Shown here: positions 43,037 through 45,852 of the stretch, piece after piece | How positions within the stretch are numbered: the stretch's first letter is position 1 | Layout: every line of letters begins with the position of its first letter | NCBI RefSeq assembly: GCF_022808935.1 | Contig: NZ_JAKZFR010000004.1 | Span: 186,001-250,000, forward strand | Length of the DNA: 64,000 bases | Reading direction: 5' to 3' | Source: Geothrix sp. SG200 | Lineage (GTDB): Bacteria; Acidobacteriota; Holophagae; Holophagales; Holophagaceae | The notes under the pieces: model-generated | Told to the model about the DNA's origin: nothing | The model's input: the letters and a program-made list of their open reading frames with translations, nothing else | The model's database searches: none | Made by a program: the position numbers and the translations under genes

Positions 43037-44509
43037 ATGTCCCGCCAGGTCGTCACCCGCTTCGCCCCTTCCCCCACAGGCATGCTCCACATCGGGGGGG
43101 TGCGCACGGCGCTGTTCTGCTGGCTCTATGCCCGCCGGCACGGGGGCCGCTTCATCCTGCGCATCGAGGACACGGACCTCTCCCGCAGCACCGACGACAA
43201 CATCCGCATCATCGAGGAGGGCATGGCCTGGTGCGGCCTCGACTGGGACGAAGGGCCGGTCACGGGCGATCCCGGCCAGTGGAAAGGTCCCCACGGACCC
43301 TACCGCCAGATGCAGCGCATGGAGCTGTACAAGACCAAGATCCAGGAGTTGCTGGACAAGGGCCTGGCCTACCGCTGCCGCTGCTCCAGGGAGGCCCTGG
43401 ACGAGCGCCGGAAGGCCGTGGAGGCCGCGGGCAAGGTCTTCCAGTACAACCGCGGGCTGGACGCGGGCAAGGGCTGCGCCGACGCGAACCATGACGCCAG
43501 CGAGGTCGCGGCCATCCGCTTCCGCATGCCTGTGGACGGCGACATCCTCGTGCCGGATCTCATCAAGGGCGACACCCGCTTCCCCGCGGAGAGCCTCGAC
43601 GACTGGATCATCGCCCGCACCGGCGAGGCCCCCGGCGAGATCGGCGTGCCCACCTACAACTTCTGCGTGGTGGTGGACGACACCCACATGGAGGTCACTC
43701 ACGTCATCCGGGGCGACGACCACCTGAACAACACGCCCAAGCAGATCCCCCTGTTCGCCGCCTTCGGCTACGACCTCCCGGCCTTCGCCCACGTGCCCAT
43801 GATCCTGGGCGCCGACGGCGCCAAGCTCAGCAAGCGGCACGGCGCCACCAGCATCACCGAGTACCAGGCCATGGGCCTGCTGCCTTCCGCCGTTCGGCTG
43901 GCCTTGGCCCGCCTCTCCTGGACCCCCAAGATCGACGGCAAGGCCGTGGAGAGCGCCGAGGAGGAGCTGCTCACGGACGAGCAGATGATCCAGCTCTTCG
44001 ACCTGGCGGACTGCCAGAAGAGCGCGGCCCGCTTCGACATGGACAAGCTCCAGTGGCTGAACCAGAAGCTCATCCAGAGGGCGTCCTGGCAGGAGCTGGA
44101 GCCGCATCTCAGGCCCTTCGTGCCAGAGGCGTGGAGGGGGAAGCCCGAGACTTGGCGGGCCCAGGCCATCCAGGCCACGCAGAAGGGCAAGTCGCTGACG
44201 GACATGGCCGAGGCGCTGCGCTTCGCCTTCGAGCGGCCCACCGCCTTTGACGAAAAGGCCGTGGAGAAGTTCATGACGCCCGCCGTGAAGCCCGCCCTGC
44301 GGGAGATCGCGGCCCTGGCCGACTACACCCACGAGGGCCTGGAGGCCGGCTTCAACGGCATCCTCGAGCGCCACGGCCTCAAGACCAAGGACCTGGCCCA
44401 GGCCCTGCGCGTGGCCCTCTGCGGGAAGCCCGTGAGCCCGGGCATCTTCGACACCCTCATGCTGGTGGGCCGGGAGGAAGTGGGCGCGCGGCTGGAGCGG
44501 TGGCTCTGA
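43037..44509 (+). CDS. gltX: Glutamyl-tRNA synthetase
   Basis: A 490-residue class I synthetase. The HIGH-type motif is in FAPSPTGMLHIGGVRTALF and the KMSKS-type motif is GADGAKLSKRHG. The tRNA-binding residues in FILRIEDTDLSRS and the C-terminal helical anticodon-binding region (about 340-490) are present. It charges tRNA-Glu. The window also carries glnS, so this enzyme is more likely discriminating than non-discriminating. Its stop overlaps the ATG of the next gene (TGATG). Confidence 0.96.
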   Translation: MSRQVVTRFAPSPTGMLHIGGVRTALFCWLYARRHGGRFILRIEDTDLSRSTDDNIRIIEEGMAWCGLDWDEGPVTGDPGQWKGPHGPYRQMQRMELYKTKIQELLDKGLAYRCRCSREALDERRKAVEAAGKVFQYNRGLDAGKGCADANHDASEVAAIRFRMPVDGDILVPDLIKGDTRFPAESLDDWIIARTGEAPGEIGVPTYNFCVVVDDTHMEVTHVIRGDDHLNNTPKQIPLFAAFGYDLPAFAHVPMILGADGAKLSKRHGATSITEYQAMGLLPSAVRLALARLSWTPKIDGKAVESAEEELLTDEQMIQLFDLADCQKSAARFDMDKLQWLNQKLIQRASWQELEPHLRPFVPEAWRGKPETWRAQAIQATQKGKSLTDMAEALRFAFERPTAFDEKAVEKFMTPAVKPALREIAALADYTHEGLEAGFNGILERHGLKTKDLAQALRVALCGKPVSPGIFDTLMLVGREEVGARLERWL

Positions 44510-44853
44510 TGGATCTCCAGGAGTTCACCCACATCACCCTGGCCGTGCTGGAGGACCAGGGCGCCGCGGCCTATGCGCCCACCATCATCGCGGGCGACGC
44601 GGTCCAGGTGATCCAGGGCATTCCGGAGGGCATGGACCACCGGGAGGCCCTCCAGGAGACGGTCCTCCGCCTGGGTCTGGAGCAGGCCGACTTCTACTTC
44701 GGCGTGCGCTCGGGACCCGGCGAGATCACCACGGGGTTCCACACGCCGGTCGGCACGCAGTTCCAGCTCATCTCCGAGATGCGGCAGGGCTTCGTGGTCT
44801 CGGCCCTGGGCGCCTGCCCCTGGTGGACCCTGGATCAGGGGCGGGACCAGTAG
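44509..44853 (+). CDS. Conserved hypothetical protein downstream of gltX
   Basis: A 114-residue protein (MDLQEFTHITLAVLEDQG...) of unknown family, with no signal peptide or TM segment. Its one-base overlap with gltX indicates translational coupling. The sequence suggests an alpha/beta domain with strands at YAPTIIAG, FYFGVRSG and FVVSALG. No catalytic motif is visible. Confidence 0.72.
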   Translation: MDLQEFTHITLAVLEDQGAAAYAPTIIAGDAVQVIQGIPEGMDHREALQETVLRLGLEQADFYFGVRSGPGEITTGFHTPVGTQFQLISEMRQGFVVSALGACPWWTLDQGRDQ

Positions 44854-44885: not shown

Positions 44886-44891
44886 TATAGT
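44886..44891 (+). promoter_or_regulatory. Probable -10 element for the proC leader
   Basis: TATAGT fits the sigma-70 -10 consensus closely. No good -35 element stands 16-18 bases upstream. If transcription begins about seven bases after it, the first base falls on or next to the ATG at 44899, so the leader peptide would be translated from a leaderless message. Confidence 0.5.
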
Positions 44892-44898
44892 GATCCGC

Positions 44899-44961
44899 AT
44901 GATCCACATCCCGGCCATCCACCCGCGCCCTAGCACCTTGCGTGCGGGGGGAGTCGCATGA
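44899..44961 (+). CDS. Candidate proC leader peptide (20 residues)
   Basis: A short open frame reading MIHIPAIHPRPSTLRAGGVA with a TGA stop. It contains three prolines (residues 5, 9 and 11), two of them within the segment that can pair in RNA structure 1:2. It begins right after a -10-like TATAGT, so it would be leaderless; no Shine-Dalgarno is present. It lies 75 bases before proC. A role as a ribosome-stalling sensor of prolyl-tRNA is inferred from its position and the mutually exclusive hairpins that follow. Confidence 0.45.
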   Translation: MIHIPAIHPRPSTLRAGGVA

Positions 44962-45018
44962 TCGGCTGACCTGGATCCAGGTCCCGCCATCCACCCCCGC
45001 CCCCAAGGCGGGGGTTTT
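44922..45018 (+). promoter_or_regulatory. Candidate transcription attenuator upstream of proC
   Basis: Four segments can pair alternatively. Segment 1 (44922-44928, CCCGCGC) pairs with segment 2 (44942-44948). Segment 2 (44944-44950, GCGGGGG) can instead pair with segment 3 (44994-45000, CCCCCGC). Segment 3 (44994-45001) can pair with segment 4 (45007-45014, GGCGGGGG) followed by TTTT, an intrinsic terminator. A palindrome ACCTGGATCCAGGT sits between. Segments 1 and 3 lie in a direct repeat (44901-44930 and 44973-45003). The order 1:2, 2:3, 3:4 with a terminator last is the classic amino-acid attenuator layout. The T-tract is short. Confidence 0.5.
44994..45018 (+). terminator. Intrinsic terminator hairpin in the proC leader
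   Basis: CCCCCGCC, loop CCCAA, GGCGGGGG, then TTTT ends 18 bases before the proC ATG. A terminator inside the leader and before the ribosome binding site (GGGAG) indicates regulated read-through into proC. Confidence 0.7.
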
Positions 45019-45036
45019 CCGTTCCAGGGAGTCTCC

Positions 45037-45852
45037 ATGAGCCGCCATCCCAAGCTCGCCATCCTCGGCTTCGGCACCATGGGCCAGGCCATCAGCGCCG
45101 GCCTGGTGGAGGCCTCGGGCTACCCGGCGGGCCGCATCCACGCGGCCACGCGGCATCCGGGCGCCGCGCGGGCCCGGGCCGAGGCCCTGGGCATCGCACT
45201 CTCGAGCGAGGCGGACGAGGCTGTCCGCCATGCCGAACTGGTGCTGCTCTGCGTGAAGCCGAAGGAGCTGAAGGGCCTGCTGGCGGGCCTCTCCGCCTCG
45301 GGTGCGCTGGACCACCACCCCCTGGTGGTCTCCATCGCCGCGGGCACGACCCTGGACTTTCTCGCGGCCCACACGCCTGTGGGCACGCCCCTGGTGCGCG
45401 CCATGCCCAACACGCCCTGCTCCATCCGCCGGGGGATGACGGTGCTGGCACCGGGGCAGGGGGTCACGGAGGCCCAGCTGGCCCAGGCCCGGGCTCTCTT
45501 CGAGCCTCTGGGCCGGGTCATGGACCTGGACGAGCGGCACATGGACGCCGTCACGGGCCTCAGCGCCAGCGGGCCGGCCTTCATGTTCGTCATTCTCGAG
45601 GCCCTGGCCGAAGGCGGCGTCCAGTGCGGCCTCCCTCGGGCTGTGGCCGTGGAACTGGCGGCCCAGATGACCCTGGGGGCCGCGTCCATGGTGCTGGAGA
45701 CCGGCCGCCACCCCGCGGCCCTCAAGGACGATGTCACCACCCCCGCCGGCTGCACCATCGCCGGCCTCCTGGCGCTCGAGGACGGCCGCATCCGCTCCGT
45801 CGTGGCCCGCGGCATCGAGCGGGCGACGCAGGTGGCGGCGGGGCTGGGATAG
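45037..45852 (+). CDS. proC: Pyrroline-5-carboxylate reductase
   Basis: A 271-residue NAD(P)H-dependent enzyme that catalyses the last step of proline synthesis. The Rossmann motif is LAILGFGTMGQAI. The family motifs VLLCVKPKEL, VSIAAGTTLDFL, VRAMPNTPCSIRRGM and the C-terminal ALKDDVTTPAGCTIAGLLALEDG (substrate site) are all present. GGGAG precedes the ATG. It is monocistronic: the following gene is convergent, 11 bp away. A leader with an intrinsic terminator lies just upstream and probably controls it. Confidence 0.95.
   Translation: MSRHPKLAILGFGTMGQAISAGLVEASGYPAGRIHAATRHPGAARARAEALGIALSSEADEAVRHAELVLLCVKPKELKGLLAGLSASGALDHHPLVVSIAAGTTLDFLAAHTPVGTPLVRAMPNTPCSIRRGMTVLAPGQGVTEAQLAQARALFEPLGRVMDLDERHMDAVTGLSASGPAFMFVILEALAEGGVQCGLPRAVAVELAAQMTLGAASMVLETGRHPAALKDDVTTPAGCTIAGLLALEDGRIRSVVARGIERATQVAAGLG

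Follow-up and report, generated by a model that had tools for sequence, protein, structure and literature searches.

Transcription attenuators that act through a leader peptide are known from the trp, his, leu, phe, thr, and ilv operons, with trpL of Escherichia coli as an example. To our knowledge, the pathways usually listed as attenuated in this way do not include proline biosynthesis. In Salmonella, Pro codons in the short frame mgtP (mgtCBR leader) and in the mgtA proline frame sense charged tRNA-Pro and relieve termination (PMC3641672), and in Bacillus subtilis, proBA and proI are controlled by tRNA-Pro T-boxes (PMC9245794). The trpL attenuator of Sinorhizobium meliloti encodes a leaderless leader peptide, i.e., the transcript starts with the AUG of the frame (PMC7298713). 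A 2010 survey of premature terminators found almost no predicted attenuators with associated functions in Acidobacteria; at that time, the known leader peptides all came from Proteobacteria and Actinobacteria, and the survey added Firmicutes (PMC2965389).

Here, we analyze the leader of proC in a 64,000-nucleotide stretch (the window) of the 3.36 Mb genome of Geothrix sp. SG200. We consider it very likely that this leader controls proC as a ribosome-mediated transcription attenuator and that what it senses is charged tRNA-Pro. This reading draws on a comparison of the leader, its start, its Pro codons, its terminator, and a parallel leader before proB, together with computed alternative folds; the transcription start, translation, and response to proline are what we infer. 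The gap between the end of a short upstream ORF (44853) and the start of proC (45037) is 183 bp. A first-pass annotation had described in this gap a TATAGT hexamer, a 20-codon frame beginning at the expected point of transcription start, CCG (residue 9) and CCT (residue 11) codons within the first pairing segment, and a terminator 18 bases before the proC ATG. Each of these is present where it was placed, and 0.0 such terminator sites occur in shuffles. The elements are as follows:

44886–44891, + strand: -10 element TATAGT, read from the sequence; the 6–7 nt spacing from hexamer to ATG is kept in leader-bearing relatives.
44898–44899, + strand: probable transcription start on the first base of the leader ATG, which would give a leaderless mRNA, from the position of the -10 element and the conserved distance to the ATG.
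44899–44961, + strand: leader peptide frame MIHIPAIHPRPSTLRAGGVA, 20 codons, with stop codon TGA at 44959–44961, read from the sequence.
44922–44936, + strand: segment 1 (CCCGCGCCCTAGCAC), which pairs with segment 2, from the consensus fold and pair counts.
44923–44931, + strand: putative regulatory codons CCG-CGC-CCT (Pro9-Arg10-Pro11), from Pro-x-Pro conservation and synonymous variation.
44942–44951, + strand: segment 2 (GTGCGGGGGG; as RNA, GUGCGGGGGG), predicted partner of segment 1 (protector) or segment 3 (antiterminator), from folds and pair counts.
44969–44982, + strand: small hairpin ACCTGGATCCAGGT between segments 2 and 3, possibly a pause hairpin.
44993–45001, + strand: segment 3 (ACCCCCGCC; as RNA, CCCCCGCC), 5' arm of the terminator.
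45007–45018, + strand: segment 4 (GGCGGGGGT) and T-run, completing an intrinsic terminator (-19.3 kcal/mol; 0.0 expected in shuffles).
45026–45031, + strand: ribosome-binding site of proC, AGGGAG, read from the sequence.
45037–45852, + strand: proC, pyrroline-5-carboxylate reductase, the putatively regulated gene (TIGR00112, 263 bits; PF14748).

The ATG at 44899 lies 7 nt after the -10 element, so transcription should start at its A or within 1 nt of it. No recognizable -35 box was found at the window leader or in its relatives. The Pro codons of the frame are codons 5, 9 (CCG, 44923–44925), and 11 (CCT, 44929–44931). Downstream, the terminator stem (44993–45015) has nine G+C-rich pairs followed by the T-run, and the leader as a whole folds better than shuffled versions of itself (z = -2.65). 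We scanned both strands of the window for a -10 element, 6–7 nt, an ATG, 14–32 codons, and a terminator within 75 nt. The proC site is the sole match in the 64 kb, and five block-shuffled windows gave 0, 0, 0, 0, and 1; one site against 0.2 per shuffled window indicates that the arrangement is not due to chance.

The ORF upstream of the gap (44509–44853) is a conserved gene of ~115 amino acids between gltX and proC. Its start overlaps the gltX stop codon, it adjoins proC in many genomes of the genus, and it has no match in Pfam or NCBIfam.

The first-pass annotation had proposed looking for a conserved short proline-containing frame in relatives, and such a frame is indeed found. Equivalent leaders precede 34 proC genes of the family, in 27 of 47 genomes of the genus Geothrix and in three other genera, with an invariant start 6–7 nt after the -10 element; a terminator was detected in 32. 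In 23 of the 47 Geothrix genomes, the leader can be aligned with that of the window, and four further genomes (G010, G020, G022, and G028) carry a leader of the same design before a proC that is only ~57% identical (the G020 frame is MSALHFQTPRPSLPPPGAPAGEGLS). Examples of the frames in the other genera (g3, g7, and g9) are MYIVPRISIPHPRPFSRGGWGVSR, MTFHLAPSPCPLPRTLGAVERYGCR, and MTSFAFNPAPSPRPSVAGGGPGTD. No full-length proC was found in four of the 47 genomes. In the other two families of the class, no proC leader was seen, and a scan of the same style over 30 proC genes from other Acidobacteriota families gave no such leader.

The leader could also be read as an ordinary promoter, a short frame that arose by chance, and the terminator of the upstream gene. 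GC-rich RNA folds readily, and the leader is absent at proC in 16 of the 47 Geothrix genomes, where proC mostly follows the upstream gene directly (G011, G012, G013, G024, G026, G027, G032, G033, G034, G037–G039, G041, and G043–G045). One of these, G044, has only a short terminator-like repeat left before proC, which suggests that the leader was lost. Such a chance assembly does not account for the single site in 64 kb, and the leader is kept as a unit in G003 and G005 although the sequence upstream has been replaced; moreover, it recurs at proB. We therefore find this explanation scarcely credible.

Outside the clear cases, the region upstream of proC in G071 (L077) has a possible leader, MIDTRPPRPILHKVWSRIRSEV, 7 nt after TAAAAT, with no terminator detected; this may be a diverged or translational version. 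The full leader pattern, run taxon-wide against named genomes, gave 12 matches, mostly from Geothrix/Holophagaceae and a few from other phyla. The exact pattern matches in records named Verrucomicrobia, Anaerolineae, an archaeon, and Sericytochromatia (L272, L274, L275, and L278) are probably due to chance.

Several properties of the short frame point to translation. The start codon is ATG in 54 of 55 proC and proB leaders (GTG in the remaining one), and the 21 columns that follow it have mean diversities of ~0.3–0.5. Measured from the ATG through the motif CCN-CGC-CCT-AGC, every proC and proB site gives a distance divisible by three (33, 36, 39, or 42 nt), while at four unrelated matches to the motif in the genus, the ATG distances are 28, 31, 37, and 40 nt. 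In the codons before Pro-x-Pro, the G+C contents at positions 1/2/3 are 0.60/0.36/0.87 for proC and 0.44/0.44/0.79 for proB, which is the pattern expected of translated sequence in a G+C-rich genome. Pro-x-Pro is present in 55 of 56 leaders (the exception being proB of G024), and the first Pro is codon 9 in 46 of 55; these counts come from an alignment anchored on Pro-x-Pro itself, and because the sequences are related, they are not independent events. Both prolines vary synonymously, as CCG, CCT, or CCC at the first and CCT, CCC, or CCA at the second. Segment 2 occurs in versions with six and seven Gs, which shift the frame near its end, and each version reaches a stop within three or four codons.

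Two other measures were of no help. The three prolines in 20 residues that the first-pass annotation pointed to are present, but they are not unusual in themselves: the other two frames of these leaders hold about as many, because C-rich RNA gives Pro in every frame, so proline enrichment was rejected as proof of coding. Likewise, purifying selection at the peptide level was not found across codons 2–8, and residues 2–8 are not conserved. Unconserved residues are expected in a leader peptide, though one test is thereby lost. With Pro counts and residues 2–8 uninformative, the argument for coding rests on the invariance of the start, the frame-preserving indels, and the GC3 periodicity.

The same design is found at a second proline gene. 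In the genome of the window, proB lies on another contig (C1:523673–524458, minus strand, L085), and its leader, ~212 nt upstream of the start of the ProB domain, consists of CACACT, 9 nt, an ATG, the frame MIPVLTFNPRPSHPMTGRPVGGL, and a strong terminator. We estimate its 5' UTR at 1–3 nt. Within this genome, exactly two copies of the codon motif have an ATG at the right distance, one before proB and one before proC. Comparable leaders (NPRPSHP...) stand before proB in 26 Geothrix genomes, of which 23 were read directly and three were placed by pattern matches, and in two genomes of g9 (G065 and G069), although no terminator was detected for that of G069. Eight genomes whose proC lacks a leader nonetheless have the proB leader (G011, G024, G027, G033, G037, G039, G041, and G045). 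In g3 and g9, a single proline leader stands before neighboring proC and proB genes (L072, L075, L071, and L073), whereas in the genus of the window, the two genes are apart and have a leader each. The occurrence of one leader design at separate loci of the same genomes gives decisive support to the attenuator reading. In another family, proB of G082 (L081) shows the same PRPS string in a different setting, since ProB itself appears to begin MDPRPSLTS, which may be a coincidence or a remnant.

The trpE gene of the same genome (L138, C1:1123829–1125154) is preceded by TTGACA, 18 nt, TTACAT, 7 nt, an ATG, and the frame MTLSSLSLRQGSLHGAWWWRAGSDGSLCEA, followed by CCCGACCATCCGGTCGGGCTTTTT. This leader has three Trp codons (WWW) and a terminator, lies 272 nt upstream of the start of the TrpE domain, and is seen in seven other genomes; it looks like an unannotated tryptophan attenuator in the genus. 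No leaders were found before hisG and leuA. The spacing from the -10 element to the ATG is 6–7 nt at proC, 7 nt at trpE, and ~9 nt at proB, from which the 5' ends are estimated. Trp codons at trpE and Pro codons at proB and proC together suggest that the genus uses leader peptides whose frames begin at the RNA 5' end or close to it.

The attenuator might respond to something other than tRNA charging. One version holds that the ribosome stalls through slow Pro-x-Pro or polyproline bond formation, or by arrest at PRPS, so that EF-P activity or the general rate of translation is sensed. The string PRPS is very frequent across the proC and proB leaders (Arg in 40 of 55 and Ser in 40 of 55), some leaders have PPP, and a link between EF-P and transcription-translation coupling is reported. 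However, the position between the prolines may hold R, P, I, Q, S, or N, the next position varies as well, and only the prolines are near-invariant; most leaders have no consecutive prolines, and RNA pairing of segment 1 can itself explain PRPS. Furthermore, the proline device is found only on proline genes, and trpE has Trp codons. We thus think a polyproline or EF-P sensor highly improbable. A narrower proposal concerns CCN-CGC-CCU-AGC, the near-invariant core of the unlinked proB and proC leaders, which would read a particular feature of proline translation, either CCU, an uncommon codon, with its tRNA or a nascent-chain pause at PRPS. We hold this to be doubtful; if true, Holophagaceae would possess a regulon dedicated to proline, with one conserved stall module as its basis.

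Under the preferred reading, a sensor of tRNA-Pro charging, the transcript would begin at the AUG of the 20-codon leader frame. When proline is scarce, a ribosome would wait at Pro codon 9 or 11, masking segment 1 and leaving segment 2 free to pair with segment 3; terminator 3:4 could then not form, and RNA polymerase would read into proC. When proline is plentiful, the ribosome would run to the UGA, segment 2 would be masked or re-paired with segment 1, and terminator 3:4 would form before proC. To model this, we placed the ribosomal A site on the second Pro codon with the next 13 nt covered, took the RNA from segment 2 onward as free, and folded it up to the end of segment 3. For the window, the predicted probability that segment 3 is paired upstream is 0.79 with the ribosome at Pro-11 versus 0.08 with the ribosome at the stop codon, as would follow from the earlier proposal that a stalled ribosome allows 2:3 and prevents the terminator. 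Mean sequestration of segment 3, stalled versus stop, is 0.74 versus 0.18 over 32 proC leaders and 0.67 versus 0.25 over 23 proB leaders. Shuffling segment 2 brings the stalled value down to means of 0.55 and 0.52, and a shuffled segment 2 still pairs with segment 3 fairly often (0.55–0.58); base composition thus accounts for part of the effect. For G051, G070, and G065 and for the divergent proC leaders of G010 and G020, the model does not predict the switch well.

Conservation of the pairings within the genus is high: in the 1:2 fold, the small hairpin, and the terminator, 98.9% of cells are paired, compared to 37–57% when slid. The small hairpin forms in 100% of 23 relatives, with compensation from U-A to C-G in three. 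The covariation across segments 1–4 that the first-pass annotation had suggested seeking is slight: 3 of 20 pairs are changed on both sides, in 1:2 and in the small hairpin, and segments 1–3 are almost invariant. It is not seen in the 2:3 helix, where 97.5% of cells are paired with no double changes, the arms being invariant and the G-runs aligning ambiguously. Covariation within the genus is modest because the arms hardly vary.

Near-invariant RNA in segments 1–2 and the small hairpin could instead belong to a structure that binds a ligand or protein (riboswitch-like or T-box-like) and drives the terminator, with the short frame incidental; the pro genes of Bacillus are controlled by T-boxes. 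A search of the window against Rfam gave no family, T-box included, at the gathering score, and the chance-level matches far below it include no T-box. In addition, the ATG, the frame, and GC3 are kept although the sequence of the first 24 nt is free to vary, and proB leaders share the coding plan of proC leaders with different pairing arms. We consider a binding RNA very improbable indeed. Altogether, the earlier interpretation as a proline attenuator is largely supported and extended to proB, and the amino acid of the codons matches the downstream gene in two pathways.

The first-pass annotation knew of no such system for proC, in agreement with the literature searched: a full-text search, with most subscription journals outside its reach, found no published leader-peptide attenuator for proline biosynthesis. 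The device would explain unannotated short frames before pro genes, and with both Pro and Trp leaders that appear to begin at the RNA 5' end or close to it, Geothrix may lend itself well to the study of attenuation with leaderless translation.

Among the systems already described, the T-boxes of B. subtilis act on the same genes, respond to the same signal (tRNA-Pro charging), and work by transcription antitermination. Unlike the Geothrix leader, a T-box binds tRNA directly without translation, and none was found in the Geothrix window. The mgtP and mgtA frames of Salmonella control magnesium transport and virulence genes rather than proline synthesis and have no sequence relation to the Geothrix leader; mgtP also differs in having a Shine-Dalgarno sequence and three consecutive Pro codons. 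The S. meliloti trpL attenuator is alike in that its transcript starts with the leader AUG, which was experimentally mapped there and is deduced here, but it senses tryptophan and belongs to the Alphaproteobacteria. Like classical attenuators, the Geothrix leader has a short frame with codons for the amino acid of the pathway, predicted alternative hairpins 1:2, 2:3, and 3:4, and an intrinsic terminator before the structural gene. Unlike them, it is directed at proline and at proC and proB and probably starts at the 5' end of the RNA; its Pro codons are spaced (P-x-P) rather than in a run, and its stop codon comes after segment 2 instead of between segments 1 and 2. Thus, judging from sequence comparison and modeled folds, what appears to be new in Geothrix is proline specificity for proline genes, a transcript beginning on the leader AUG or close to it, and a stop codon placed after segment 2.
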